Source: Salvia splendens (Eukaryota > Streptophyta > Magnoliopsida > Lamiales > Lamiaceae). Taken from it: DNA of 64,000 nt. The number at the start of each line of letters is the position of its first letter. Position 1 is the stretch's first letter. Positions 3,497 through 48,961 of the stretch are shown here, piece by piece. Under the pieces are notes generated by a model, which searched no databases, was not told the origin of the DNA, and worked only from the letters and a program-made list of their open reading frames with translations. The DNA lies in NCBI RefSeq assembly GCF_004379255.2, contig NC_056041.1, forward strand, positions 5,456,001-5,520,000, written 5' to 3'. The translations under genes were made by a program, and so were the position numbers.

Positions 3497-5186
3497 AATG
3501 TATTGCTGTTATATTATATATAGTCACGCACTTGAACATGCGAAAGTGATCAGCTGACCAACTAACTGGGTTGGTTACAGAATTGAGATAAAGCTTCAAT
3601 GGTTCTGCAGAGTTGCTCAACAGTACTGCCACTTTGGAGTTTGAGGGTCCATTTGAATCATTGGGGAAATCTGTATTTGATGGCACAGCTGCAGCTATTC
3701 ATCATAAAAGGGGTCCCTAAGATTATTGGCATCCAAGTACGTTCTGCGCCTCTTCAGATTTTAGTCCTCATTGCATGACTTTTTTTTGTATCCGATCTTC
3801 CGGTTAAGGATGGTAGATTAACCACTTAAGATGCTGTTTTTAACCATGACGAATGTTATTTTACCATTGCAAAAAAATCGCTTTAATTTGATTTAGAGAG
3901 TGTCTAAACTTTTGTAACAGAATGTGGCATAGCTTATACTGAACTCGTAACTTCCTCATTTTGGTCGTTAAATGGAAAATCTGGTGTTTGACTGATGAAC
4001 AAAATAAGTTTGGACCTAGCTGATTACAGAAGTTTCAATATGATAATATCTCAGTTGTATCATTTTTCTGTAACCTTTTGTGGTTTTGTGTTGTTCATTA
4101 TGCGGTGCAATCTGCAAGGATTCTATTCGGCAAACAATTTTGAAAGTTTAACCAACTAATACTACTATAATTCTCTCTTTCTTATGTTGTGTTTTGTTTG
4201 TCTCTCTGTTCAACACTGGCAGAATCGGAGAAGGACGACGATGGACGAGGCCATCGTAAACAGTTGAAGTAGAAAGATCAGGGTGCCATCAAGTTGCATC
4301 TGCTGTATGACTTCTTCAACTTGCTGACTTTCCCGTTGCCATGCGTTCTTTAAAAGCTTTTGGATCCAGTTACATTACTGAAAAATGATCGTATTTTATC
4401 ATAAAGCAATGCCATTAATCTTAATTCCCTTTGATTGATCAATGCTCAGTGAAATTATTTTATTGATAATTTAGCATTATCTCTACTTCCTTTTTGATGT
4501 GTCCTATCAACTAATATACGCTGTCAATCATTGTACATGAATTTAAAGATAAGTTAACTAAATTCTTTTTGGATATTATAGTAATGACAATTAATTAGAT
4601 CTAACTAAAAATAAGATAATTTTGCTGTTATTTTATAACATAGGAACGACTTTGCCCGATCTTTCAATTACTATATTATTTCCATATTTTAAATAATCAT
4701 ATTTTTCTGTAAGAATTTATTTATCTTTGATTTTGGCTGATATCCCTATATTATCTAGGAAAATATGATCATATATAAAGATAACATTCTGACTTAGCAT
4801 CAAGGTTGCGAAGGAAAAGTGGAACGATTAAACATGAAGAGTTGGCTTATGAAGTACTACAAAATAAATGTTGTAGAATTTTGACCCCATGTTTAGGATC
4901 CTAAATTCATGCATCACAATATATTGACATTAGATCTTCACAATCAACAAACTGATCACAGTTTGAATTCACCATAATATGGTATAGTATATTTAGAAAA
5001 AAAGTTGAATTTCATTTTGCTCCCTATCTTCCCTTCCTAAAATCTCTGCAATGGAGCGACATCCATCTCCCTCCCCTCTCTCCTCATTACTCTTCTCCAT
5101 GCATACTTCTCTCTCCTCCCCTTGTGATCTCACCACCAAAAAAAACTCCCCCCGCCCGCCCTCTTCCCCAGGGCTCCCCAATTCCA
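3497..5186. other. 3' region of PPR gene and promoter region of the kinase gene
   Basis: About 1.7 kb without a convincing coding region. It holds the PPR 3' untranslated region (possibly with an intron ending near 4222, followed by a purine-rich stretch) and AT-rich sequence leading to a C/T-rich leader at 5060-5180 just before the kinase ATG, typical of a plant 5' untranslated region. Confidence 0.5.
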
Positions 5187-7318
5187 ATGGGCAACTGCTT
5201 CTCCCAAGCCGCAGAAGATGCCCAGCCCGCCACCGACGACACCGCCCCCGCCCCTGCCCCTGCCCCCGCCGATGAATCCTCCCCCATGACCCCTCCCCAA
5301 ACCGCCACCACCACCCCTGCCTCCCCCAAAGCGGCGGCCCCGGTTGGTCCGGTCCTGGGACGGCCCATGGTCGACATCAGCGACTACTACACGGTGGGGA
5401 AAGAGCTGGGTCAGGGGCAGTTCGGTGTGACCCACCTCTGCATCGACAAGCACACGGGGGAGCAGTTTGCGTGCAAGACCATCGCGAAGCGGAAGCTGGC
5501 CAACGAGGAGGACATGGAGGATGTTCGGAGGGAGGTGCAGATCATGCACCATCTCATGGGGCAGGCCAACATCGTCGACTTGAAGGGGGCCTACGAAGAC
5601 AAGCACAACGTCTATCTCGTCATGGAGCTCTGCGCCGGCGGGGAGCTCTTCGACCGCATCATTGCCCGAGGCTACTACACTGAGAGGGCGGCCGCGTCTC
5701 TCATGAGGACCATTGTGCAGATCGTACACACCTGCCATACCATGGGAGTCATTCATAGGGATCTCAAGCCCGAGAACTTCTTGCTCTTGAATAAGGAAGA
5801 GGATTCGCCTCTCAAGGCCACAGATTTCGGCCTCTCCGTCTTCTTTAAACAAGGTAAAAATATAACCATCAATATTTGGTATGGAATTGTTGTCTATATA
5901 TCTGAACGTATTAATATTGAGATGAAATGTTATTGCTTTTGGCAGGAGAGGAATTCAAAGATATTGTGGGAAGTGCATATTACATAGCACCAGAGGTGTT
6001 GAAAAGAAACTATGGACCTGAAGCTGATGTTTGGAGTATTGGTGTCATGCTCTACATTCTTCTCTCTGGTGTCCCTCCTTTTTGGGCAGACTCGGAGACG
6101 GGCATATTCAACGCGATTCTACGAGGACGCGTAGATTTCACATCGGACCCATGGCCGTCCATTTCAGACGGGGCGAAGGAGCTAGTGAAGAAGATGCTAG
6201 CTTCAGACCCCAAGCAGAGGCTCTCAGCAGCCCAAGTGCTGAGTATGGTCTACTACCTCTCACAATTTACGAAATATTATAAATGCATAACATGATATTT
6301 TATCCGATTCTATATACACAGATCATCCTTGGATTAAGGAGGACGGAGACGCACCGGATACGCCACTTGACAACGCGGTCTTCAACAGACTCAAACAATT
6401 CAGAGCTATGAATAAGTTCAAGAAAGCAGCATTGCGGGTAAGTATGATTTTATGTTTTGACACGTTCTTTATAACAAAATGAGTGCTACTAAAACATGGA
6501 TGAAAAAACGAAGGTTATCGCGGGTTGCTTGTCGGAGGAGGAAATCATGGGTCTGAAAGAAATGTTCAAGGGAATGGACACAGACAACAGTGGAACAATA
6601 ACGTTGGAAGAGCTGAAGCAAGGGCTGTCCGAAACGGGATCAAAGATAACAGAGTATGAAGTCCAACAGCTGATGGAGGCTGCCGATGCTGATGGCAATG
6701 GCACCATTAGCTATGAAGAATTCATCACTGCAACAATGCATATGAACAGAATGGATAAAGAAGAGCATCTTTACACAGCATTTCAATACTTTGACAAAGA
6801 CAACAGCGGGTAATTCTCATTTGATCAATCCTGTTTTTGAACCTAAATGCACGAAGTTTCGCTCCATTCTGACCAAAAATGACATTAAGTTTGTGTATTT
6901 ATTCACAACTTCGAGAGTTCACGTGCAAAATCAAAGTACATACACCGTTCGTGTATTTTACGTGTTTGCTTTTGTTGGCATCATCAGGTACATTACGATC
7001 GAAGAACTAGAGCATGCTCTCAAAGAATTCGGCATGGGTAATGACAAGGACATTAAGGAAATCGTCTCCGAAGTTGATGCTGATAATGTAAGAATTACTA
7101 TCATTGTGCTTCATAGTTCATTAATTCTAGACAATCTTTCAACTTTATATAGTACTGTATATAATAAACAAATTCAAATTGGATGTTTTAAAAATGTGCA
7201 GGATGGTCGGATCAACTATGATGAATTTGTAGCGATGATGAAGAAAGGTAATCCAGATATGGCAGTAAATAGCAAGAAAAGAAGAAGTGGTGTTTTTACT
7301 GAGGTCCCCGAAGAATAA
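5187..7318 (+). CDS. Calcium-dependent protein kinase (CDPK/CPK)
   Basis: Six exons: 5187-5853, 5946-6242, 6322-6437, 6514-6809, 6988-7087, 7202-7318, giving 530 residues, the usual CDPK size. MGNCFS carries Gly2 for myristoylation and Cys4 for palmitoylation, so a membrane-attached Ser/Thr kinase is expected. A Pro/Ala-rich variable region runs to about residue 55. The kinase domain shows GQGQFG (75-80), Lys97, HRD with Asp192, DFG at 213-215 and APE. The autoinhibitory junction has [15 protein letters not shown]. Four intact EF-hand loops lie at about 382-393, 418-429, 454-465 and 489-500. The sequence around [18 protein letters not shown] and the MMKKGNPDM ending recall the CPK3/17/29/34 side of the family, but I do not assign an orthologue. 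Calcium binding to the EF hands releases the kinase. Confidence 0.96.
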
Positions 7319-15123: not shown

Positions 15124-17502
15124 TTACTGTAAAACTTGAGCAGGCCACAGCTTCTTCCACATAGAGATCTCTTCTTCCCCTCTCAGTTTCCGAATCCCTC
15201 CGTAAAACCCATCCGTCTCGTTTCCTTCCTCTCTGTGCTCTCTCCGGTTGATGAATTTTTGCCTCCAATGGGATCCCAGTGTGTACTGCCTGAACTCCAG
15301 CACCACCGTGTCTGCACCGTTACCAAATCTCCACAAGTTACTTAAACATAGCTTATAAATGTGACAAATTCAAAATCTGCAGACAGTTTATGCATTTACT
15401 GGCAGTTAAACAAAGCAAAAATTCAATCTTGTTGTCATTTTAAGGTTCATGATGAAACTCTAAGTTTAGTTATATAATCTTAGACTACACCAGTCATCAG
15501 CGACTCAGACTCAACGCGTTGCAGATAAGTGAAAAGCACGACTACAACAAATAAATATTAGAACTATAAAGACAGAAACAAAAAACAAAATAAACATAAA
15601 GAAAAGTAAAGAAGTCCCCTTCATATTGGTTGGCCATAAGCATCACATTGAGACAGCACTCATGAGTTTGTTGGTCGAGATTACGACAGGCTTAGTCACG
15701 AGCTATTTTAATGGTCCAACTATAGGCACAAGGGGAGCCCCACAGTGCATGAAAAATGGGAGCCAAATGATATGTAATGACCTCCTTCTTTAAAGAGATA
15801 TAATATGGCTTTATGAGTGATGAGAATGAGGTCTCACAAATGATATTTAGACACACATGACCTCTCAGTATCCCTTGCCTAGTATTCCTACTTTTCGATA
15901 AGTTTACTTCATCTCCAGTGTTTTACTATCAGGGGGTGTTTATTTTGATTAATTGTGAGTTTGTTTGACAGTTTTACCAACGAAGAAGATATGGCAGCAA
16001 ACTCACCACTATCATGACACCGGCAGTAGCTGGTGTTCCCATCGCAAGTTTCAAAGTGGCCTATAACACCATACCACCAACCTGCACACATTTGCAACAC
16101 ATTTTCCATTCAACTTGTTGTATCATCTATTCGAGATAATTTCTAGGTAATTCGATAGGAATTTTTAAACAAACGACAAACGAGATGCGTTAAGAGTTGA
16201 CAAGAACTTCCCACCAAGCAAGAATGAAAAGACATGCCACCTTCCACTTTAAGAAAACAAGGTTGAATATATCCAAAAGTTTGAAGAAGTCAATTATGGT
16301 GTGAGTTGAAAAGGAAAGGGTAAGTTATAGGCTTGGTCTTCAAACTCCTTTTATGAAGCTTCTTGGTAGATATACCACTCACACCTACCACACACATACC
16401 ATGTGATGCAAATGACAACTCTAACTCACACACACACCATATGGAAAAAAGCTATCAACACCAACTCGTGTGTGCCAAGAGAGAGAAATCAATACCATAT
16501 GATGCAAATGAAAGAACTAACTCATACAACTGCGTAAAAGAGTATGAACAATACCATATGGGAACTCTTTGTTTCGTCTCCATTGGATCTCGATGTGATC
16601 CTCAGGGTGGAGGTCGTGCAAGCAATCCGAAATGTGAAGATCGTGCGGTGAAGTGTGGATAAGGGGAGCCCTCAACCTATCCCATGTCACACCACTCTCA
16701 ATAGCACTTGCTCTTGCTCCATGAGCAGGATATCTACACACCAACACCAACAAATCAAAACTACAAACTTTCAACACTATGCATCATCACAAAATCCTCA
16801 GCTTCAATCAATTATATGTAAGATTAACCTGGCATTGAAGGTGTCAGTTTTCCTATCATAGCTCAACATAGCATCATAGCAAGACAACATAAATCCCACA
16901 TGACCATTCTGCACACACACATCAACACCAAGATCAATCAACACTTCTCTATGATAGAAATCCAAGAAATCAACACAAACCTCACGGTTATAAACTTGAG
17001 CAGGAAACCAGAACTTTCCAGACTCAAGAGCAAGATACTTGGACATAACCGAATCAACGGCCGTGAAGGAGGTCCTCCTCCTCCCACCACCGCCGCTCAA
17101 GCCAGATCTAATCAACCCCCACAAATACCCCACCACCCCCTTCTGCAACTTCCACTCATTCAAGAAAGAAAGGTCTTTTCTTGAAGCTATAAAACACTCC
17201 CATTCATTCGCCGCAGCAGCCCCAAAAATCCCACCCCATTTCCCCTCCATATGCTTCCGCCAGAGATGATCGCTCACGCAGCCGTCTCTCAGGGAGGTGC
17301 ACACGCTTGCCATCCTGCACAGCCCCTCCGGGGGAAGCTTCTCGAGGATGCATTCCAGCACCAGGTCCGGCAACTCCAGCACCGACATCGCCGGCGCTGC
17401 GGCGGCGGAAGGCTTGGATTTGGGCGACATTATTGAAGTGAGGAATAATGAGAAGAGGAATAAGGAGAAGGAAGTGATGAAGAAGAGGAGACAGTGTAGC
17501 AT
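15124..17502 (-). CDS. F-box protein (At2g26850/At2g32560-like)
   Basis: Four minus-strand exons: 17502-16829, 16733-16555, 16081-16007, 15311-15124, giving 371 residues. A hydrophobic leader [12 protein letters not shown] is followed by an F-box ([20 protein letters not shown]). The downstream family-specific region has [45 protein letters not shown] and [11 protein letters not shown], and ends [12 protein letters not shown]-box proteins are substrate receptors of SCF ubiquitin ligases; the target is unknown. Homologues I recall also carry a hydrophobic N-terminus, which favours the ATG at 17502. A TATA-like element at about 17526-17535 lies only some 25 bp upstream, so the ATG at 17430 (MSPKSK) is a real alternative. 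Confidence 0.9.
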
Positions 17503-20500
17503 TTCACTATCTTGCTCAACTTGAGGAATATATAGAGAGAGAGACAGAGAGAAGAAAAAACACCCCACACACACATACACGCAAGTATACGTGTGTATTG
17601 TAGAGTCAATTTACAGTGGGAAAATTCTTGAAGTGAGTTGGCTTTTAATTGGCCAATTAGAGTGGGATTAGCAGAAGCCCACCTAACTAAAACTGTGGGG
17701 CTATGAACAAAGAGGCAAGAAAATCTTTTTCTAGTAATAAAACAGGATTATCTTCAGACACGTATAAAGATCCTTTCTCTACGAAATGATCTTTGCCTTA
17801 AGCAGGCACGGAATCTAAGAAACACCCAAATTGTAGCATTCGAGGTCGGGTAACTTGATATTGAATTGGATTCGAATCAAATACCCGTATTTAAGAATTC
17901 GGAATTGACGAGATTCAATGTATATATAAACTGGAAATGGGTTTTTGATTTAATAAAGTACTGTCCACAAAAAATGGACACGATTTTCTTTTCAAATTAT
18001 TCATTAGAAATTTGCTATTTTTCGTTTATGGTAATACGATCAGAATAATTATTATTACTCCATAATTAAGATGACACTCAATCTTCACTCACACAATAAT
18101 AGTATTAAAATGGTGGCAAGAAAAAATTGGACAGATGGATATTTGACATGAAAAAATTGTACTACTTCATTTGTGTACAACTATTTCCGTTGGTCCATAA
18201 TGTAATATTTCTATTTTATTATATGTCATGATCACTTGCACATGCTTACTTTTGTATTTCATTCATCTAGTTGGTATAGTATGTTTTTTGAAACAATAAA
18301 TTTGGGGTTTATGTTTACTGGAGTACTAATATTCACTTGAATATCATATTTAAATTTCAATTATTTACAATATTTTATAATCACTCCGCAACTCTTTTCA
18401 TTTATGTATTAAGTGCACTTCCAATTTATATCATTTGATACTACAAAGTACAAACCATTCTACCTATGATATCTATCAATTAAGAAAACGTTAATTGGTT
18501 GCAAGGCCACCAATAATTAGTATTTTATGATAATTTATAAACTCTTTGTCTAAAAACATAAACTTTTATGAATCTTCCTACGAATTCTAACTTCACCTCA
18601 ATGTATCACTAAATTTGATGATATGGCAGTAGAATAAATGAGGTGGAAAGTTCAATATTCAAAACAATTAATATCGTTTTAATTATTAATAGAGATTTAA
18701 AAGATAATCAGTTTTCAAGTAACTTCTCTTTTCTTATCCATTGTAATCCGCGTGGACCAGCGTTTGTTATCCCAAATCTTGTTCACCAACCAAATAATGC
18801 AATTTACTATTCTTTAGTTCCTAAAAAGAAGTTATTGATTATCATTATCCTAATATAAGAAGATTTAGTAGAACCTACAAATCCATAAAACTAAACTTAT
18901 AATGAATTTATTAGACAACTAATGTGATTCTCGTGACTAATAGTAGATTCCGATGATCCATGAGATCGGTGAGCTTGGCGGTATTAAATTAAATCAAAGT
19001 TAGGTAACACAAATGCTATGCCAATAATTCAAGAGAATAATTGTAGTTGATTGCATTTCTTTTTAAGTGATTGTACAAATAAGTGACACATTGTGAATCT
19101 CATGTGATATTGCGCAATTCGACTAGCTTAGCAAGTTGGTACAGATTGGCATATCTAACTGGGTCCGGAAAACTCAATTAATTAAAGCATTTACAACAGT
19201 CATCGACCTCATTGTACGACAACTCTGGCCCAACCGTTTGGATTGAAATTCACTTTCAGGTTTTTTTCATCATTCATCGTCTAGCAATGACCTTTGTATC
19301 ACCTCTGAATTCAGATACTAGAGACAACTTTCTTTGTTGTGTCCGACCCTACGAATTTCATTTCAAATTTGCAGCTAGAATGCACGATAGTCGATCTATT
19401 TCTCCATCTTCTTCTCCGTGAACTCAACGCCTTCGAGATTTATATTGCTCACTTGACTCATCTAATCTAATATCATTGACTCATATCTGCCCAAGCATTC
19501 ATCATAATTAAGGTTTTGGGATAGAGTAAAACCACCTATTATAAATTTAAACAACTAAGCATACTGTTTTAGATATGAGGAGAATTTGAGTTAGCAAGCC
19601 CAAACACCTAATGAATTTTTTTAATGAAAACATGGGCTTTTATAGGCCCAAACATGAATCCCACTTTTCTGTCTCTACCTAAATATTTCAGAAAATAAGA
19701 ATCATAAAGACCCAAACTTGAAGCTAATTTTTTTCATTTTTCGTGGCATAACCTAAAAACAACCTCATAAATAGCATTGATTATTTCTAGCTACAAAGTC
19801 TAGCATGAGAGTGAATATTCAAAGAATCCATAAAAGCATTACCCATCATAATTTTGAATCCATAAATACATCAATAAATGTTGATTGTAGACTAGTAAGG
19901 TAAAAGAGGTTCTATTCTATGCCTAACAATATGCAATTTTTTTAACAAAAACTTTATATTTGACAACACTTATCGATTATACATCAATCATTGCAAACGA
20001 TTATTCTTCAAAATATCATTCGATTCTTGAATTAATGAGCCCCTTTTATTCAACCCCCATATAAGTTAAGCCAAATGCCTTGAGCCGGATTCAAAACAAA
20101 AATATTGAAAAGGTATCCTATGCTATTGGATTTTCATTATAGGTGTAAAACAAAAATAATTACAAATCAAAACAAGCTGCATAAATGACTGATAGTGATT
20201 GAAAAAAAAATATCGAAATTGATAGTACTCTAAAATTACTCTCTTTTCGTTTTCTCTTAACAGATTGTATAATCGGGCTTGGTTAAGTACTATCCAAAAA
20301 AAAAAAATCCGCTACTTGACCCAATTTATTTTTAACGAATCACATATGAAACTCTACTTTGATTATTTTAATCGTATATTAGGATACAAGAATATCATAA
20401 TTTTTAAAAATATAAATATCAGGCATACCTAATTTCCAAAAATATATAATTATTGTCATCAAAACTGACAGAAAAGGATCGGATTATACCCGATTACTCA

Positions 20501-35451: not shown

Positions 35452-36122
35452 TGATGGAGTACGTACTAAACAAGCCCAACAGCAGTAAAGCCCAAGACAG
35501 AGTATCAGTTCGGCATGACTAAAGAGTATCAGTCCGGCGTGACTAAAGAGTTCAGTTCGGCACAACCAAAGAGTTCGGCCCCAGCCTACAGCTCGGTGAA
35601 AGCCAACTCATCAAGCTCTGCTCTCAGGTCGGCATCAAGCTCTACTCTCAGATCGGCAAAAGCTGCTCGGCAATAATTTAGCAGTTCGGTCTCAGTATTC
35701 GACCGAACTAGGAGATAGTGGACTCATGCAAGATTTCCACCTCCACTACACCGACGATCTATTTAGTGGTGTCAAGCAGTCATTAACTCATGCAGGATAG
35801 TGGACCCATGCAAGGTCGCCACGATCTCCACGACATCCACTACCTAATAAATGCTGCATGCCACGATCTTGGTTCACTGTATAAATAGAACCTAGGTCAG
35901 ATAGATAACTTCTTCTGAAAATTCTAAAAAGCTCTCTAGAGAGAATATCATAAAGCAGGCCAGTGTTGTAAGCTGTAATTCGCAGATCAAGCAATACAAA
36001 CCTGCCCCCATTTCTCCCCGTGGACGTAGATTTACCTCAGTAAATCGAACCACGTAAAATCTCTGTGTTGATCTTCATTTATTTCCTGCATTTACAAACA
36101 TCAAAAATTCGCCGCTTCATCA
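35452..36122 (+). repeat. 5' LTR
   Basis: 671 bp, TG...CA. U3 carries about three tandem 24 bp units (AGTATCAGTTCGGCATGACT and variants, 35502-35580) and two of another 24 bp unit (TCAAGCTCTGCTCTCAGGTC, about 35608-35655). A TATA box TATAAATAG lies at 35880-35888. Confidence 0.98.
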
Positions 36123-36123
36123 C

Positions 36124-36140
36124 TGGCGCCGTCTGTGGGA
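36124..36140 (+). promoter_or_regulatory. Retrotransposon primer binding site
   Basis: TGGCGCCGTCTGTGGGA begins two bases after the 5' LTR end. TGGCGCC is the usual start of the tRNA-primed site in plant Ty3/gypsy elements; I do not assign the tRNA. Confidence 0.8.
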
Positions 36141-36196
36141 AACAGAGAACAAAATTTGTGATAAAGCGAATTTTTGACCCTTTTCCACCCCAAAAA

Positions 36197-38275
36197 ATGC
36201 ATACCAGATCACATAACACTCATAATACCGTTCGTGATAACCGTGAGGAAGCTAGTCCAGCTCGTAGGTCTGAAAAACGGCCTCGGGAGACATCTACCTC
36301 CGGTTCTCACGAAGAAGGAGCAAGCCACTCCAGGAGTCATCGCACCGAGTCTTCCCAGCAGCCCAATTTAAATGAAGCTGTCAAGCTGTTCTTGGCCGAG
36401 AAGCAGGAGGAGTTCTTAACCTTCCTGCAGAAGAGCCAACAGCCGGAGAAGACAACGGCGGATTCTCCCTCCTCATCCAGACATGAAAGTCACTACCGCA
36501 GTAGTGACGTGTCTTCCAGGAGAAAGAATCCTCAACCTCAACATGCTCCTGCTCCTCCTCGGTACCGGAACCACAGGAGAACTCCATCTCCTCCGTACCG
36601 AAGAGATGTCGGGTTCGCCATGTACGGAGCATTAAAGACTCCGTTCTCGGACGATATCACCCGAACTCCTTTGCCGCGGAACTACCGGACACCGTCAATG
36701 ACTTATGACGGGCTGGAGGATCCTCATGACTTCCTGGGACGCTATCAATATAATATGGCGAACCAGGGTCTCAATGAGGTCCACATGTGCAAGCTGTTCC
36801 CCGAGCTGCTCATCGGGAACGCCAGAAGGTGGTTCGACAGCCTTCCTCAAGGCTGCATCAGATCCTACCGAGATCTCATGGATGCTTTCCACAGGAGGTT
36901 CTTTCAGAAAGCGGAAGCCCGAATCACTTCGGCTCAGCTGCTTTCTATACGTCAAGGTCGCGACGAAAAGATCAGCGACTTCCTGACGAGATTCCATAAG
37001 GAATGCCTACAAGTAGATAATCTCAATGATCTACTTGTCATCTCGGCATTCCAAAATGGAATCCTGCCCGGAGCTCTCTACAGAAAGCTCGTGGAGTGCG
37101 GTCCGCAAACAGCTCAAGAAATGTGGGACATTGCGGACCAGTTTTCTCGTGCGGATGAGGCAGACCGTCGAAAACGGTCGTTAGACAGCTCATCCCAAGG
37201 AGACAAAAGGAAGCCCGATCAAAGCGACCAGGTGCTTCCTCGCCGAACTCCTTTTGAAAGAATTCAAAGGGCACCGGTACAAGGCAGATTGGGGCCACGT
37301 CTCAATCCTGAGAAGCCGCCCGCTCAGTTCGTACCATTAAACAAGTCAAGAGCGGAAATTTTCGAACTACATTCCGATATGTTCGAAAAACCAAAGCGGA
37401 TAACGAAATCAGCCGCACGGCGACTTCAGGATCAATATTGCTCCTTCCATCAAACCCACGGTCACGATACCGAGGAGTGCCGAGATTTGGCTGCAGGTAT
37501 TGATGTTCTTGTGAAAACAGGAACGTTAAAAAAATACCAAAGCAAGCAGCCGAAAAAGAACAAAAGGCAGAGAAGTGCGAACTGCAATCCTCAGGATCCG
37601 AAAAGGCATGAGGATCCCGAAGACGACGACGAGCCGCAATACGATGGAGTAATCCTGACTATTGATGCTCTCCCAGCCGGGAAGACTAAGTCGTCCCTAA
37701 AAGCAGAACGCAGAGGTTCCAATCAAGAGGAACCAACACATAAAAGGCTGAAGAAAGACGAAGTGATTACATTTTCAGATGCCGATCCCGTCCCAGCCAT
37801 CTCTCCTCACCAAGACGCTATTGTCATTCAAGCCGGGGTGGCAAACAAACTGGTCCACAGAGTATTTGTGGATACAGGAGCGTCAGTCAGCATTCTTTTT
37901 AAAGAATGTTTCGATAAAATGGAAGTGGATCCAGCTCGGCTCAGTCCGGCTCCACTTCCTCTGAAAAGTTTCGCCCAGGAGGACACCCGCCCTGAAGGTA
38001 TTATCAGCCTTCCGATCACGGTGGGAAAAGCGCCTACAAGCTCCAATACGATGATCGAGTTCTTTGTGGTGAAAGCTCGGTCTCCGTACAACGTCATCCT
38101 GGGGAGGGACTGGCTCAACACAGTTCGGGCCGTTTGCTCTACTTATCACCTCACCATCAAGATCCCCACTAAAGGTGGGATAGCGGTCATCCGAGGTGAT
38201 CAAAAGAGAGCAAAAGAATGTCTGCAGATTGCGCTTAAAAGTGCCGAGCAATCAGTTCGGCATCATCAAGCATAG
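36197..38275 (+). CDS. Retrotransposon Gag-protease
   Basis: From the first ATG after the primer site the frame encodes 692 residues. A basic, Ser-rich N-terminus is followed by the retrotrans_gag core (ARRWFDSLPQGCIRSYRDL, then FHRRFFQKA and ISDFLTRFHKECLQV). A zinc-knuckle-like CSFHQTHGHDTEEC lies at about 415-428, in which the second Cys is replaced by His as is common in this lineage. The aspartic protease active site VDTGASVS has Asp at about residue 559. The frame ends at TAG 38273-38275 and continues open in the same frame into pol. Gag forms the virus-like particle and the protease cuts the polyprotein. Confidence 0.95.
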   Translation: MHTRSHNTHNTVRDNREEASPARRSEKRPRETSTSGSHEEGASHSRSHRTESSQQPNLNEAVKLFLAEKQEEFLTFLQKSQQPEKTTADSPSSSRHESHYRSSDVSSRRKNPQPQHAPAPPRYRNHRRTPSPPYRRDVGFAMYGALKTPFSDDITRTPLPRNYRTPSMTYDGLEDPHDFLGRYQYNMANQGLNEVHMCKLFPELLIGNARRWFDSLPQGCIRSYRDLMDAFHRRFFQKAEARITSAQLLSIRQGRDEKISDFLTRFHKECLQVDNLNDLLVISAFQNGILPGALYRKLVECGPQTAQEMWDIADQFSRADEADRRKRSLDSSSQGDKRKPDQSDQVLPRRTPFERIQRAPVQGRLGPRLNPEKPPAQFVPLNKSRAEIFELHSDMFEKPKRITKSAARRLQDQYCSFHQTHGHDTEECRDLAAGIDVLVKTGTLKKYQSKQPKKNKRQRSANCNPQDPKRHEDPEDDDEPQYDGVILTIDALPAGKTKSSLKAERRGSNQEEPTHKRLKKDEVITFSDADPVPAISPHQDAIVIQAGVANKLVHRVFVDTGASVSILFKECFDKMEVDPARLSPAPLPLKSFAQEDTRPEGIISLPITVGKAPTSSNTMIEFFVVKARSPYNVILGRDWLNTVRAVCSTYHLTIKIPTKGGIAVIRGDQKRAKECLQIALKSAEQSVRHHQA

Positions 38276-38281
38276 CAATCA
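38273..38281 (+). promoter_or_regulatory. In-frame TAG with TMV-type readthrough context
   Basis: TAG CAA TCA matches the leaky stop consensus UAG-CARYYA. The eleven codons between this TAG and the ATG at 38309 are open and in the same frame as both flanking coding regions, so readthrough would yield a Gag-Pol polyprotein. Confidence 0.75.
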
Positions 38282-38308
38282 CAGCAACCGGAGTCGGAGG
38301 CAAGCGAG

Positions 38309-41300
38309 ATGACCGAAGTCACTTCAGAGCCGAACTCAATGACCGTTCAGTTATACGAAGATGATCCATCCAGAACGGTCAACGTCGGCTTCGCAGGAAC
38401 GCCTCTACTCCGGGAAAAGACCATTCAACTCCTCAAGGAGTACAAAGATGTCTTTGCATGGTCTCCGTTGGACATGACCGGAGTGCCCCCCGAGGTAATC
38501 ACTCATCGGTTAAATATTGATCCTTCAATCCGGCCAGTAAAACAGAAGCAAAGACTCTTTGCGGCAGAAAGAAGCCAAGTCATCCATGACGAAGTCCGCC
38601 AATTACTAAAAGCGGATGTACTATTCGAGGTGAAATATCCTTCTTGGGTGGCCAATCCTGTGATGATCAAGAAAAAAGGAGGAGGATGGCGGATGTGCAT
38701 AGATTTTACCGATCTAAACAAGCACTGTCCAAAAGATTGCTATCCCCTTCCGAATATAGATAAAAAAGTAGAAGCTTTGATCGGCTTCGAAATTTTCTGT
38801 TTTCTTGATTTATACAAAGGATATCACCAAGTGTTGATGGATGAGAGTGACGCTCCGAAAACAGCTTTCATTACCGATTTCGGCATTTTCGCTTATAAAA
38901 AGATGCCATTCGGTTTAAAGAATGCCGGAGCCACTTATCAAAGGATGGTAGACAAGCTTTTTCGGCACCTAATCGGGAAACAGGTTGAAGTGTATGTCGA
39001 CGACATAGTTGTCAAAAGCAAAAGCACTTCGGAGTACGAAGACAACCTCAAATCCACTCTCAACGTGCTCCGAAAAGCCAACCTCAAACTCAACCCCCAA
39101 AAATGTACCTTTTTGGTAGATTCGGGAAAGTTTCTGGGTTGTTGGGTTTCAAAGGACGGACTCAAGGCAAATCCCTCAAAAGTTCAAGTCGTTCAGCACA
39201 TGGCAATGCCGAAGTCCATACATGACGTGCAAAGGCTAACCGGATGTCTAGCCGCACTGAATCGATTCCTTTCCCAAGCAGCCGAAAAGCAACTGCCATT
39301 CTTCAAGGTGTTGAAAAAGGCACCAAAGTTCGAGTGGGGAGCCGAGCAGAAAAAGGCCTTTGACGAGCTCAAAAGTTATCTAGCCGAGCTTCCTATTCTC
39401 TCTGCTCCAACCGAAGCCGAAGTAATATTCTTATACTTAGCGGCATCAGATCAAACCATCAGCGCGGTGCTTGTACGAGAAGAAGGCCTAAAGCAGCTTC
39501 CCATCTACTTTACAAGCCGAGCATTAAGAGGTCCAGAAACAAGGTATCAACCTCTGGAAAAAATTGCTCTGGCGTTAGTAAATGCAGCAAGGAGACTGCG
39601 GCCATACTTCTATGCTCACAAGGTATGCGTCTTAACCGATCTGCCTCTTCGGCAAGTTTTGACCAAGCCAGAAGCATCAGGCAGAATCGCCAAATGGGCC
39701 ATAGAGCTGGGAGAACACTCAATCGAGTACCTACCTCGGAAAGCCATCAAGGGACAAGCCTTGGCAGATTTTCTTACAGAGGCCAAGTTCGATCAAGCAA
39801 TCCCTGTCATTGCCGAACAGAAAAAGTCTGCCAATACCGAACTAGCACAGCCCTTGAAATCCGAAGTAGAACCGCCAGACTGCTGGAGCGGATTCGTAGA
39901 TGGAGCTTCAAACAAGATGGGAAGTGGAGCTGGTATTTTACTCGTCGCTCCCGACGGACACGAGGTAACCTACTCACTTCGGTTCCTATTCCCCACTACT
40001 AATAATGAAGCCGAGTACGAAGCCCTCCTTGCCGGACTCCAGTTAGCGCAAAGTCTGCTCGTCAAATCTCTCAAAGTCCATTGTGATTCACAAGTCATAG
40101 TAAATCACATGTTGGGTACAAGTGAAGCTCGTGACGAGAGAATGAAGAAGTATTTGGACAAAGCGCAAAGCATCAGCCGAAGTTTTTCCTATTTTCGGAT
40201 AATCCGCGTTCCCAGAGCGGAAAATAGCCGAGCAGATACCTTAAGTAAATTGGCCTCAGATCCGAGCTCAAAGGCAGAAGAATTAATGCATCGAAGCATT
40301 GATGAAGCCGAAGTACATTCAGTATCCAGCTCGCCGAACTGGATGACGCCGATCTTGCAGTATCTGGATCAAGGACAATTGCCCGAGGATAAGAGAGAAG
40401 CTCGGAAGATCACGTGCCGAGCACTTCGGTACGAACTTCATGAAGGAGTCCTCTTTAGAAAGTCTTACCTCCAGCCGTTATTGCGGTGCGTAGGACCAGA
40501 AGAGACGGACTACATCCTCAGAGAAGTTCATGAAGGATCGTGCGGCAGCCACATCGGAGCTAGAGCTTTAGCTAAAAAAGTTCTAAGATGGGGATATTAT
40601 TGGCCAACCTTGGTACAAGAAGCAGTGCAGCTCGTCAAGACATGCCCGAAGTGCCAAATCCATGCAAATATCCCAAGGATGCCGCAGACCGATCTATCCA
40701 CTATGCAAAGTCCTTGGCCTTTCATGCAATGGGGCATAGACATAGTGGGACCACTTCCTCAAGCTCCTCGGCAAATGAAATTCCTAATCGTTGCCGTGGA
40801 CTACTTTACGAAGTGGGTGGAAGCTGAACCATTAGCTACGATAACGAGCTCGAAGGCATTGGATTTCGTCTGGAAGAACATAGTGTGCCGATTTGGCATA
40901 CCCCACATCCTCATCTCGGATAACGGGACTCAGTTCACCGACAAGACGTTCAAGAATTGGTGCCAAGAGCTGAATATTCAACAGCGGTTCACTTCGGTCT
41001 CTCATCCACAAGCAAACGGACAAACGGAGGTAACAAATCGTATCCTGGTGAAAGGGTTAAAAGCTCGGTTAGAACAAGCCAAAGGACAATGGGTAGAAAA
41101 TCTCCCTCAAGTCCTATGGTCCTACCGAACTACACCCACAACCTCCAACGGTGAAACTCCGTACAGTCTTGTGTACGACACTGAAGCCGTAATTCCGGTG
41201 GAGATCGGCATGCCCAGTCCTCGAACTCTAAATTTCTCAGCAGAAATGAATGACAACGGACTGAAAGCTGAGCTAGATCTTGCCGAAGAAAGAAGAGAAT

Positions 41301-41572
41301 TGGCATGCATAAAAGCAGCCAAGTACAAGGAGCAAGTAGCCCGGTATTACAACCAAAGGGTGAAGAAGCTGCAATTTCAAGTGGGAGATCTCGTCTTGAG
41401 AAACAACGAAGTAAGCCGAGCAGAAAAGCTGGGCAAGCTCGAACCCACATGGGAAGGTCCGTATCGGGTGTCAGAAGTCCTCGGCAAAGGGTCTTACAAA
41501 TTGGCTCACATGTCAGGAGAACAGGTACCCCGAACATGGCACATTTCCAACCTCAAAAAGTTCCATTTGTAA
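38309..41572 (+). CDS. Retrotransposon Pol: reverse transcriptase, two RNase H domains, integrase
   Basis: The open frame is 1087 codons from ATG 38309; translation probably begins by readthrough from gag rather than at this ATG. Reverse transcriptase has FLDLYKGYHQV, MPFGLKNAGATYQ and catalytic YVDD at about residues 229-232. The first RNase H follows (LAASDQTISAVLVRE..PLEKIALALV). The second, archaeal-type RNase H has GFVDGASNKMGSGAG, NNEAEYEALLAGL and HCDSQVIVNHM. Integrase has an HHCC finger (HEGSCGSHIG...CPKCQIHA) and a DDE core (GIDIVGPLP, ISDNGTQFT, HPQANGQTEVTN). No chromodomain is seen at the C-terminus. No internal stop or frameshift is present. Confidence 0.96.
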   Translation: MTEVTSEPNSMTVQLYEDDPSRTVNVGFAGTPLLREKTIQLLKEYKDVFAWSPLDMTGVPPEVITHRLNIDPSIRPVKQKQRLFAAERSQVIHDEVRQLLKADVLFEVKYPSWVANPVMIKKKGGGWRMCIDFTDLNKHCPKDCYPLPNIDKKVEALIGFEIFCFLDLYKGYHQVLMDESDAPKTAFITDFGIFAYKKMPFGLKNAGATYQRMVDKLFRHLIGKQVEVYVDDIVVKSKSTSEYEDNLKSTLNVLRKANLKLNPQKCTFLVDSGKFLGCWVSKDGLKANPSKVQVVQHMAMPKSIHDVQRLTGCLAALNRFLSQAAEKQLPFFKVLKKAPKFEWGAEQKKAFDELKSYLAELPILSAPTEAEVIFLYLAASDQTISAVLVREEGLKQLPIYFTSRALRGPETRYQPLEKIALALVNAARRLRPYFYAHKVCVLTDLPLRQVLTKPEASGRIAKWAIELGEHSIEYLPRKAIKGQALADFLTEAKFDQAIPVIAEQKKSANTELAQPLKSEVEPPDCWSGFVDGASNKMGSGAGILLVAPDGHEVTYSLRFLFPTTNNEAEYEALLAGLQLAQSLLVKSLKVHCDSQVIVNHMLGTSEARDERMKKYLDKAQSISRSFSYFRIIRVPRAENSRADTLSKLASDPSSKAEELMHRSIDEAEVHSVSSSPNWMTPILQYLDQGQLPEDKREARKITCRALRYELHEGVLFRKSYLQPLLRCVGPEETDYILREVHEGSCGSHIGARALAKKVLRWGYYWPTLVQEAVQLVKTCPKCQIHANIPRMPQTDLSTMQSPWPFMQWGIDIVGPLPQAPRQMKFLIVAVDYFTKWVEAEPLATITSSKALDFVWKNIVCRFGIPHILISDNGTQFTDKTFKNWCQELNIQQRFTSVSHPQANGQTEVTNRILVKGLKARLEQAKGQWVENLPQVLWSYRTTPTTSNGETPYSLVYDTEAVIPVEIGMPSPRTLNFSAEMNDNGLKAELDLAEERRELACIKAAKYKEQVARYYNQRVKKLQFQVGDLVLRNNEVSRAEKLGKLEPTWEGPYRVSEVLGKGSYKLAHMSGEQVPRTWHISNLKKFHL

Positions 41573-41894
41573 GAGACAGTCCGGTCAGTCTGTCTTGTGT
41601 TTAGTTCGGTCCTAAGGCTATGTGCGTTTTTTGTCTCTGTGCTTTATTTGGCTTACTTGGTCTTTTTTTTTTTTTTTGTCTCTGTGCGTTTTTGTCTGTC
41701 TGTTTCGTCTCTCTGTGCGTGTCGTCTCTTACAAATGTTACTGAGGTATCTTGTTCTTCGAAGGCTGATCCCCTTCTTAGAACATGTACAAGCCCACGAT
41801 TGTGCGTCAAAGCTTCTAAAGAGGATACAAGACCACAATTCAGCTTAAACAAGCACTTCGTCTGAAACGAACTGCAACAAAAGTCCAATTCTCG

Positions 41895-42180
41895 CGATAA
41901 AACTTGCCTGAATTAGGACTAGGGAAAGTCCGATCCACGCGATAAAACTCGCCGAATTAGGACAAGGGAAAGTCCGATCCCCAAATTAGGACAAGGGAAA
42001 GTCCGATCCCCAAATTAGGACAAGGGAAAGTCCGATCCCCAAATTAGGACAAGGGAAAGTCCGATCCCCAAATTAGGACAAGGGAAAGTCCGATCCCCAA
42101 ATTAGGACAAGGGAAAGTCCGATCCCGAAATTAGGACAACGGAAAGTCCGATCCAAGCGATAAAACTCGCCAAATTAGGA
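41895..42180 (+). repeat. 29 bp minisatellite before the 3' LTR
   Basis: AATTAGGACAAGGGAAAGTC plus CGATCCCCA is repeated head to tail; AGTCCGATCC occurs eight times, and six internal copies are nearly perfect. The array is bordered on both sides by GCGATAAAACTCGCC. It lies in the untranslated stretch between pol and the polypurine tract. Confidence 0.95.
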
Positions 42181-42273
42181 CACAAACCAAGTCCGGTCAA
42201 AGAAGAGTTCACTTACCCCATACTTTTATCCAGAATGCCGAAGTGATTCACTTCGCTTTTCGGGGGGGGGTAG

Positions 42274-42944
42274 TGATGGAGTACGTACTAAACAAGCCCA
42301 ACAGCAGTAAAGCCCAAGACAGAGTATCAGTTCGGCATGACTAAAGAGTATCAGTCCGGCGTGACTAAAGAGTTCAGTTCGGCACAACCAAAGAGTTCGG
42401 CCCCAGCCTACAGCTCGGTGAAAGCCAACTCATCAAGCTCTGCTCTCAGGTCGGCATCAAGCTCTACTCTCAGATCGGCAAAAGCTGCTCGGCAATAATT
42501 TAGCAGTTCGGTCTCAGTATTCGACCGAACTAGGAGATAGTGGACTCATGCAAGATTTCCACCTCCACTACACCGACGATCTATTTAGTGGTGTCAAGCA
42601 GTCATTAACTCATGCAGGATAGTGGACCCATGCAAGGTCGCCACGATCTCCACGACATCCACTACCTAATAAATGCTGCATGCCACGATCTTGGTTCACT
42701 GTATAAATAGAACCTAGGTCAGATAGATAACTTCTTCTGAAAATTCTAAAAAGCTCTCTAGAGAGAATATCATAAAGCAGGCCAGTGTTGTAAGCTGTAA
42801 TTCGCAGATCAAGCAATACAAACCTGCCCCCATTTCTCCCCGTGGACGTAGATTTACCTCAGTAAATCGAACCACGTAAAATCTCTGTGTTGATCTTCAT
42901 TTATTTCCTGCATTTACAAACATCAAAAATTCGCCGCTTCATCA
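42274..42944 (+). repeat. 3' LTR
   Basis: 671 bp, same length and, by eye, same sequence as the 5' LTR; its TATA box falls at 42702-42710. Followed directly by the target duplication GTGCT. Confidence 0.98.
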
Positions 42945-48454: not shown

Positions 48455-48961
48455 TTACCTTTCATTAAGGGGGGGGGGGAGTTCATTGAGATCAAAACTA
48501 AACATCTTAGCTTCATTTTCATTAACAATGGGGCCTTGGCAATGCCGCCTATGCCCACCAAGAGCCTGCCCTTTTGAGAACTCTTTGTAGCAAAACATGC
48601 ACCGGTGCACTGCTCCGCCACACACGGCCACCACTTCTTCCGGAACTCCATCGTCTCCTCTGCCGGCCGCCTTGTTATGGTGGGCCTTGTGGCCACCCAA
48701 TGCTTGGTAGCTACTAAAAGACCTCTTGCATATGTTGCATCTATGGTGCTTTGTGGACATCTTGTAACTCAAAATTTTCCCATTTCTTTCACTAGTTGAC
48801 TCCAACTTCCTCTTCTTTGGTGGGAGATTCTCCGTCGCTAATTCGTCGTGATGAGCCCGCACCGCCCTTGTCCTTCTGCCCGTTTTGGACCATCTGGACA
48901 GTTTCGGATTGAACTGGCTTCCCTTCGGAGCGAGTTCCTTCCCGAGAATTTCGAGCTCCAT
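48455..48961 (-). CDS. Two-finger C2H2 zinc-finger repressor (C1-2i/ZAT type)
   Basis: Intronless, 168 residues. A basic cluster PPKKRK near residue 48 is a likely nuclear signal. Two plant-type fingers carry the QALGGH motif: Cys75-His95 and Cys121-His140. An EAR repression motif FDLNELPP lies near the C-terminus (156-163). This layout is that of stress-responsive ZAT-type transcriptional repressors. The C-terminal PPP codons lie in a G homopolymer on the plus strand, so the last few residues depend on the length of that run. The start is the only ATG that leaves a usual-length N-terminus. Confidence 0.93.
   Translation of the reverse strand: MELEILGKELAPKGSQFNPKLSRWSKTGRRTRAVRAHHDELATENLPPKKRKLESTSERNGKILSYKMSTKHHRCNICKRSFSSYQALGGHKAHHNKAAGRGDDGVPEEVVAVCGGAVHRCMFCYKEFSKGQALGGHRRHCQGPIVNENEAKMFSFDLNELPPPLNER

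Follow-up and report, generated by a model that had tools for sequence, protein, structure and literature searches.

A candidate leaky UAG codon in a tobamovirus-type context at the gag-pro/pol boundary of a young Tat-group retrotransposon in Salvia splendens

Introduction

A 64-kb stretch of the Salvia splendens genome (contig NC_056041.1; hereafter the window, the numbering of which is used throughout) contains one complete long terminal repeat (LTR) retrotransposon at 35452-42944, the sole copy there, in which a single in-frame TAG separates gag-pro from pol. This locus raises the question of whether the codon is a functional stop that is occasionally read through to produce Gag-Pro-Pol or a mutation marking the onset of decay. 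Readthrough of an in-frame stop between gag and pol is known in gammaretroviruses (PMC5009743) and has been proposed for fungal Ty1/copia elements (PMC3441728). Plant elements have mainly been described as having a single open reading frame (ORF), as using the +1 frame (in Sireviruses and a further type; PMC5009743, PMC2829016), or as being spliced (Ogre; PMC6317226). Our analysis indicates that the codon is probably a site of tobamovirus-type readthrough.

Results

Stop codon and its context

The 1792 codons from the ATG at 36197 to the end of pol include two stops, i.e. the TAG at 38273 and the terminal codon at 41570, and the gag-pro frame is free of stops from 36044 up to the TAG. The six bases that follow the TAG, CAATCA, fit both CAR YYA (R, purine; Y, pyrimidine) and the CAA UYA form of the tobamovirus-type leaky UAG. 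The next in-frame ATG is located at 38309, 33 nt (eleven codons) downstream of the TAG, and the intervening codons are open. Around the stop there is no frameshift, and the window contains no N. The linker between the protease and the reverse transcriptase (RT), with bounds drawn by us, is 56 residues long, compared with 50 as the median of 93 relatives (among the best 120 listed), indicating that both sides of the stop form an ordinary linker. In tobacco mosaic virus (TMV), the six bases after the stop are reported to be essential for readthrough, by which tyrosine is inserted; with this context, readthrough reached 32% when assayed transiently and 6-10% in plants carrying the reporter as a transgene, and with a similar one from beet necrotic yellow vein virus it was 11% (PMC2754532).

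The two LTRs show 0 differences over 671 positions, and a 5-bp target duplication, GTGCT, is present on both flanks of the element. Thus, the features on which the original prediction was based, namely a gag-pro ending at this TAG with the next eleven codons and all of pol open in the same frame, a CARYYA context, a coding region otherwise undisrupted, and a young element of the plant Tat group (see below), were all recovered in our analysis.

CARYYA follows five of the 1792 in-frame codons, and three of these five sites (after the codons at 38246, 38273, and 38345) are in or beside the linker, so that the local rate is above the average. Over the full window (+ strand), 791 TAGs occur, 3 of which precede CARYYA, as do 9 of the 3668 stop triplets counted in any frame. 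In a count that was made after the pattern had been noticed and that uses our own linker bounds, 762 single-base nonsense changes are possible in the coding region (the stop codon itself excluded), with 32 falling inside the linker (38210-38377) and a single one generating TAG with CARYYA elsewhere; the corresponding numbers among the 164 transitions are 7 and 0. A random nonsense change would therefore fall at the protease-RT boundary in ~4% of cases, and with a CARYYA context more rarely still. Random nonsense mutation would seldom give TAG with CARYYA at the gag-pro/pol boundary.

As a separate observation, AGCAATCA occurs twice within 38250-38281, the two occurrences being 27 nt apart in frame; one lies in the loop region of a predicted RNA hairpin (38248-38255, by eye) and the other at the stop.

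Proposed mechanism

We favour the reading that tobamovirus-type UAG readthrough sets the ratio of Gag-Pro to Gag-Pro-Pol. The full-length RNA of this young Tat-group element would be translated to Gag-Pro, with termination at the UAG, and a minority of the ribosomes that reach the UAG, with CAAUCA behind it, would decode it with a near-cognate tRNA. Readthrough would yield an ordinary Gag-Pro-Pol across a linker of normal length, and the stop would thereby fix the ratio of the two products. The points in favour are the lone stop in the coding region, located exactly at a functional boundary, the CAR YYA match, the rarity of such a position and context among the possible nonsense changes, the ordinary length of the linker, the identical LTRs with their target duplication, and an unusual predicted RNA hairpin around the stop. 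What we infer from them is that readthrough occurs, that it is due to the context, and that the ratio is of consequence to the element. We call this reading probable, and not more, because the improbable joint position and context must be weighed against relatives that are mostly free of such a stop. Two other arrangements were considered: frameshifting is unnecessary, as pol shares the frame of gag-pro, and an Ogre-type spacer between ORFs is ruled out, as the frames abut at the TAG.

Organization and lineage of the element

The features of the element are listed in Table 1. In gag-pro, the Pfam profile Retrotrans_gag scored 60.3 bits; the protease profile gag-asp_proteas stayed under its cut-off (22.2 vs. 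28.2 bits), but a DTGAS motif is nonetheless present. The integrase in pol is represented by the Pfam zinc-binding and core domains, and its core motifs were found; the motif pattern for the HH pair gave no match, but the Pfam H2C2 profile was above its cut-off. The second RNase H (RVT_3 by Pfam; aRH) occupies pol residues 541-659, between RT_RNaseH and the integrase.

A second RNase H in the polyprotein distinguishes the Tat group of plant Ty3/gypsy elements, which includes Ogre and Retand (PMC6317226). We place the element in this group because its aRH sits between the RNase H (RH) and the integrase (INT), an order that is also characteristic of Retand and is common to Ogre. Elements of the Retand subclade are described as having a long region between POL and the 3' LTR (2,933-6,566 bp) and an antisense TRP28 ORF (PMC11963269). 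Here, the corresponding region (41573-42273) is 701 bp long, and no minus-strand ORF of at least 150 amino acids is present in it. Since the element has neither this region and antisense ORF nor the spacer of Ogre, the placement stops at the Tat group, above the subclade level.

Table 1. Features of the retrotransposon at 35452-42944 (positions in the window)
Feature	Position	Strand	Remarks
5' LTR	35452..36122	+	671 bp, TGATG...CATCA; 671/671 positions same as 3' LTR
Putative primer binding site	36123..36141	+	TGGCGCC..., starting 1 nt past the LTR; presumed from its position 3' of the 5' LTR
gag-pro ORF	36197..38275	+	692 codons + TAG, from first in-frame ATG; capsid, zinc-knuckle-like C..H..H..C, aspartic protease DTGAS
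Protease-RT linker	38210..38377	+	contains the TAG; bounds drawn by the authors
Predicted RNA hairpin	38227..38280	+	19 standard pairs in three stems; encloses the stop (folding)
TAG stop	38273-38275	+	gag-pro/pol boundary
CAATCA	38276..38281	+	directly 3' of the TAG
pol	38276..41572	+	frame of gag-pro, 1098 codons + TAA; RT (YVDD), RNase H, second RNase H (RVT_3), integrase
Tandem repeat array	41920..42183	+	29-bp units, between pol and 3' LTR; 7 overlapping 90-nt matches spaced 29 bp
3' LTR	42274..42944	+	purine tract with nine G before it, GTGCT duplication after it

Relatives, age, and RNA folding

Several results weigh against readthrough, among them the comparison with related elements. 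A search with pol matched at least 4297 proteins (7966 candidates scored), the best 120 of which, with identities of about 45-55%, were analysed. In 93 of these 120 the protease end and the RT are present in one open protein with a linker free of stops by local alignment, although many of these sequences come from annotated gene models that may have skipped a stop, 18 of the 93 are from ena, jgi, or lgn sources, and continuity was judged at the protein level. A few of the 93 have odd linker lengths (<15 or >100), which are probably gene-model effects. As for the others, 22 start at or near the linker, their start sites being the choices of gene callers, and 5 belong to neither class. Judging from these protein sequences, a sense linker appears to be common in distant relatives. 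A stop at this boundary is therefore not a rule of the lineage, which leaves room for a young nonsense mutation. In a published survey, a single gag-pol ORF was found in 37 of 63 (59%) recently active Retand clusters and in 83% of the eudicot ones, and two-ORF forms also occur among the clusters (PMC11963269).

No further copy sharing this stop was detected in the window, in viral, plasmid, and phage collections, or in the one stretch (L001) examined among the best 80 of 462 genome-contig relatives. Viral contigs contained no sister copies, and the plasmid and phage collections gave weak matches only, with a query coverage of 63% or less at 30% identity. L001 (1-4661) encodes a distant Tat-like gag-pol as one open frame along the whole 4661-base contig; it is filed under Streptomyces clavifer and is probably plant contamination. 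The search with gag-pro yielded 5 proteins, the closest of which (P0001; 62% identity over the aligned capsid-protease piece) is a partial protein that ends at the protease motif, so that the junction is not covered. The P0001 record, from a contig of 2245 bases assigned to Escherichia coli, is also probably plant contamination. Of the 2 proteins obtained in a profile search for gag-pro relatives, neither is informative at the junction.

The age of the element and the composition of its linker are likewise less favourable than they first appear. From the identical LTRs (flat prior, equal rates), the coding region is expected to have acquired ~4 substitutions since insertion, with a probability of ~0.16 for at least one nonsense change, so that youth alone leaves room for decay. 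The linker is also rich in glutamine codons, which provides more CAR locally and more codons that are one step from a stop.

In the predicted hairpin that encloses the stop, the segment formed by G38275 and CAAUC (38276-38280) is paired with 38227-38232, and the two bases before it, U38273 and A38274, bulge out. The folding z score is -5.24 for 38160-38280 and -3.62 for 38226-38345, and in neither case did any of the 200 shuffles fold as well. When synonymous codons were redrawn with the protein kept, 38222-38281 ranked 2nd among 591 windows (0/200 as good), and in a scan of the coding region against dinucleotide shuffles the top-scoring 60-nt window at the stop ranked 5th of 359 and the top-scoring 120-nt window 12th of 355. 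By these predictions the hairpin is unusual, yet not unique, since better windows exist by both dinucleotide (4/359) and synonymous (1/591) shuffles. A 3' stem-loop directly past the stop was sought and rejected, as 38276-38345 folds no better than its shuffles (z 0.15; folding without pseudoknots); 38276-38395 has a moderate z of -2.19 (2/200 shuffles as good), with a stem starting ~50 nt downstream of the stop. The location of the stop within a stem also differs from the arrangement in TMV, where a short linear context suffices. Because a ribosome positioned at the stop would already have unfolded the hairpin, we do not count it as a stimulator of readthrough. It is conceivable, but doubtful, that the stop, CAAUCA, and the hairpin form one recoding element, in which the folded hairpin would hide the leaky context and passing ribosomes would free it, tying the Gag-Pro:Gag-Pro-Pol ratio to the translation load. 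If so, this recoding element would be a plant-virus-type gag-pol readthrough site in a plant Ty3/gypsy element.

Discussion

Alternative explanations

The original prediction had preferred a functional stop to decay, and this preference stands in part: the position, the codon, the context, the ORFs, and the youth of the element all fit programmed readthrough, but the stop-free linkers of most relatives and the estimated chance of a nonsense change since insertion temper it. If decay is the explanation, the family has a single Gag-Pro-Pol ORF and this copy acquired its stop after or just before insertion, possibly being mobilized in trans by intact copies. The single ORFs of most of the relatives analysed and of most eudicot Retand clusters agree with this, as do the glutamine codons of the linker, which are one transition from a stop. 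The joint position and context are nevertheless improbable under random nonsense, and no further disabling change is found in the coding region; we therefore regard decay as unlikely, while giving it real weight.

Production of pol by reinitiation or internal entry at the ATG at 38309 is improbable. This ATG is in frame and close behind the stop, and the pol-only relatives begin at or near the linker, with the reservation on gene-caller starts given above. However, the eleven codons between the stop and the ATG are open in frame, although reinitiation has no need of them, and the plant gag/pol cases known for internal entry or bypass are Sireviruses, in which pol is in another frame (PMC2829016, PMC5009743). 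Very improbable is the removal of the stop, as in Ogre, by a small in-frame intron spliced from some transcripts: 135 frame-keeping GT-AG pairs of at least 60 nt span the stop in the scanned stretch (enumerated, unscored), as any sequence would offer, but the two frames abut at the stop with no spacer. A sequencing or assembly error has scarcely any probability in our view; the stop is seen in a single copy, but the sequence around it bears no signs of poor quality.

Comparison with known systems

The readthrough that we favour has counterparts in several systems, none of which is identical to it. The likeness to TMV (tobamovirus type I) consists of a UAG followed by a hexamer fitting CAR YYA. 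In TMV, as in the element at 35452-42944, an A directly precedes the stop. The TMV stop, however, is located in the viral replicase and not between gag and pol, and it requires no hairpin, 25 nt being sufficient (PMC2754532). In murine leukaemia virus, an in-frame UAG at the gag-pol junction sets the proportion of Gag to Gag-Pol (PMC5009743), but a 3' pseudoknot stimulates readthrough there, and in the present element the protease lies upstream of the stop. Within the Tat group, some Retand and Ogre elements have two ORFs, with GAG-PROT in ORF1 and RT-RH-INT in ORF2 (PMC6317226, PMC11963269); those of Ogre are described as ~274 bp apart on average, with an intron, whereas the frames abut here. 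The Verticillium VdLTRE5 and Candida Tca2 elements have gag and pol in frame with one stop between them (PMC3441728, PMC2194720), but these are fungal Ty1/copia elements with UGA, and neither has CARYYA (PMC3441728). SIRE1, a Ty1/copia Sirevirus of soybean, is likewise a plant LTR retrotransposon with a downstream product, an envelope-like protein, reported to be made by stop suppression (PMC2829016). The stop of SIRE1 lies between pol and env, unlike the gag-pro/pol stop described here, and SIRE1 belongs to the other superfamily. Its stop is reportedly a UAG with a CARYYA-like context.

Other genes in the window

Three other coding segments were noted in the window. At 5124-7315 (+), a protein kinase domain with weak EF-hand matches behind it resembles pieces of a calcium-dependent protein kinase gene, and an F-box protein ORF is present at 16807-17580 (-). 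At 48458-48961 (-), a two-finger C2H2 protein (Pfam zf-C2H2_6) is encoded that has a DLNELP stretch at its C-terminus and resembles plant ZAT-type repressors.

Implications

In our literature search, which covered parts of the main texts of some articles, we recognised no report of a plant Ty3/gypsy element in which gag-pro and pol are separated by a stop with CARYYA. The route by which single-frame plant Ty3/gypsy elements obtain an excess of Gag over Pol is poorly known. If our reading is correct, a tobamovirus-type UAG between gag-pro and pol would be a simple and testable answer for one family, and would match the solution that the gammaretroviruses have at this boundary.
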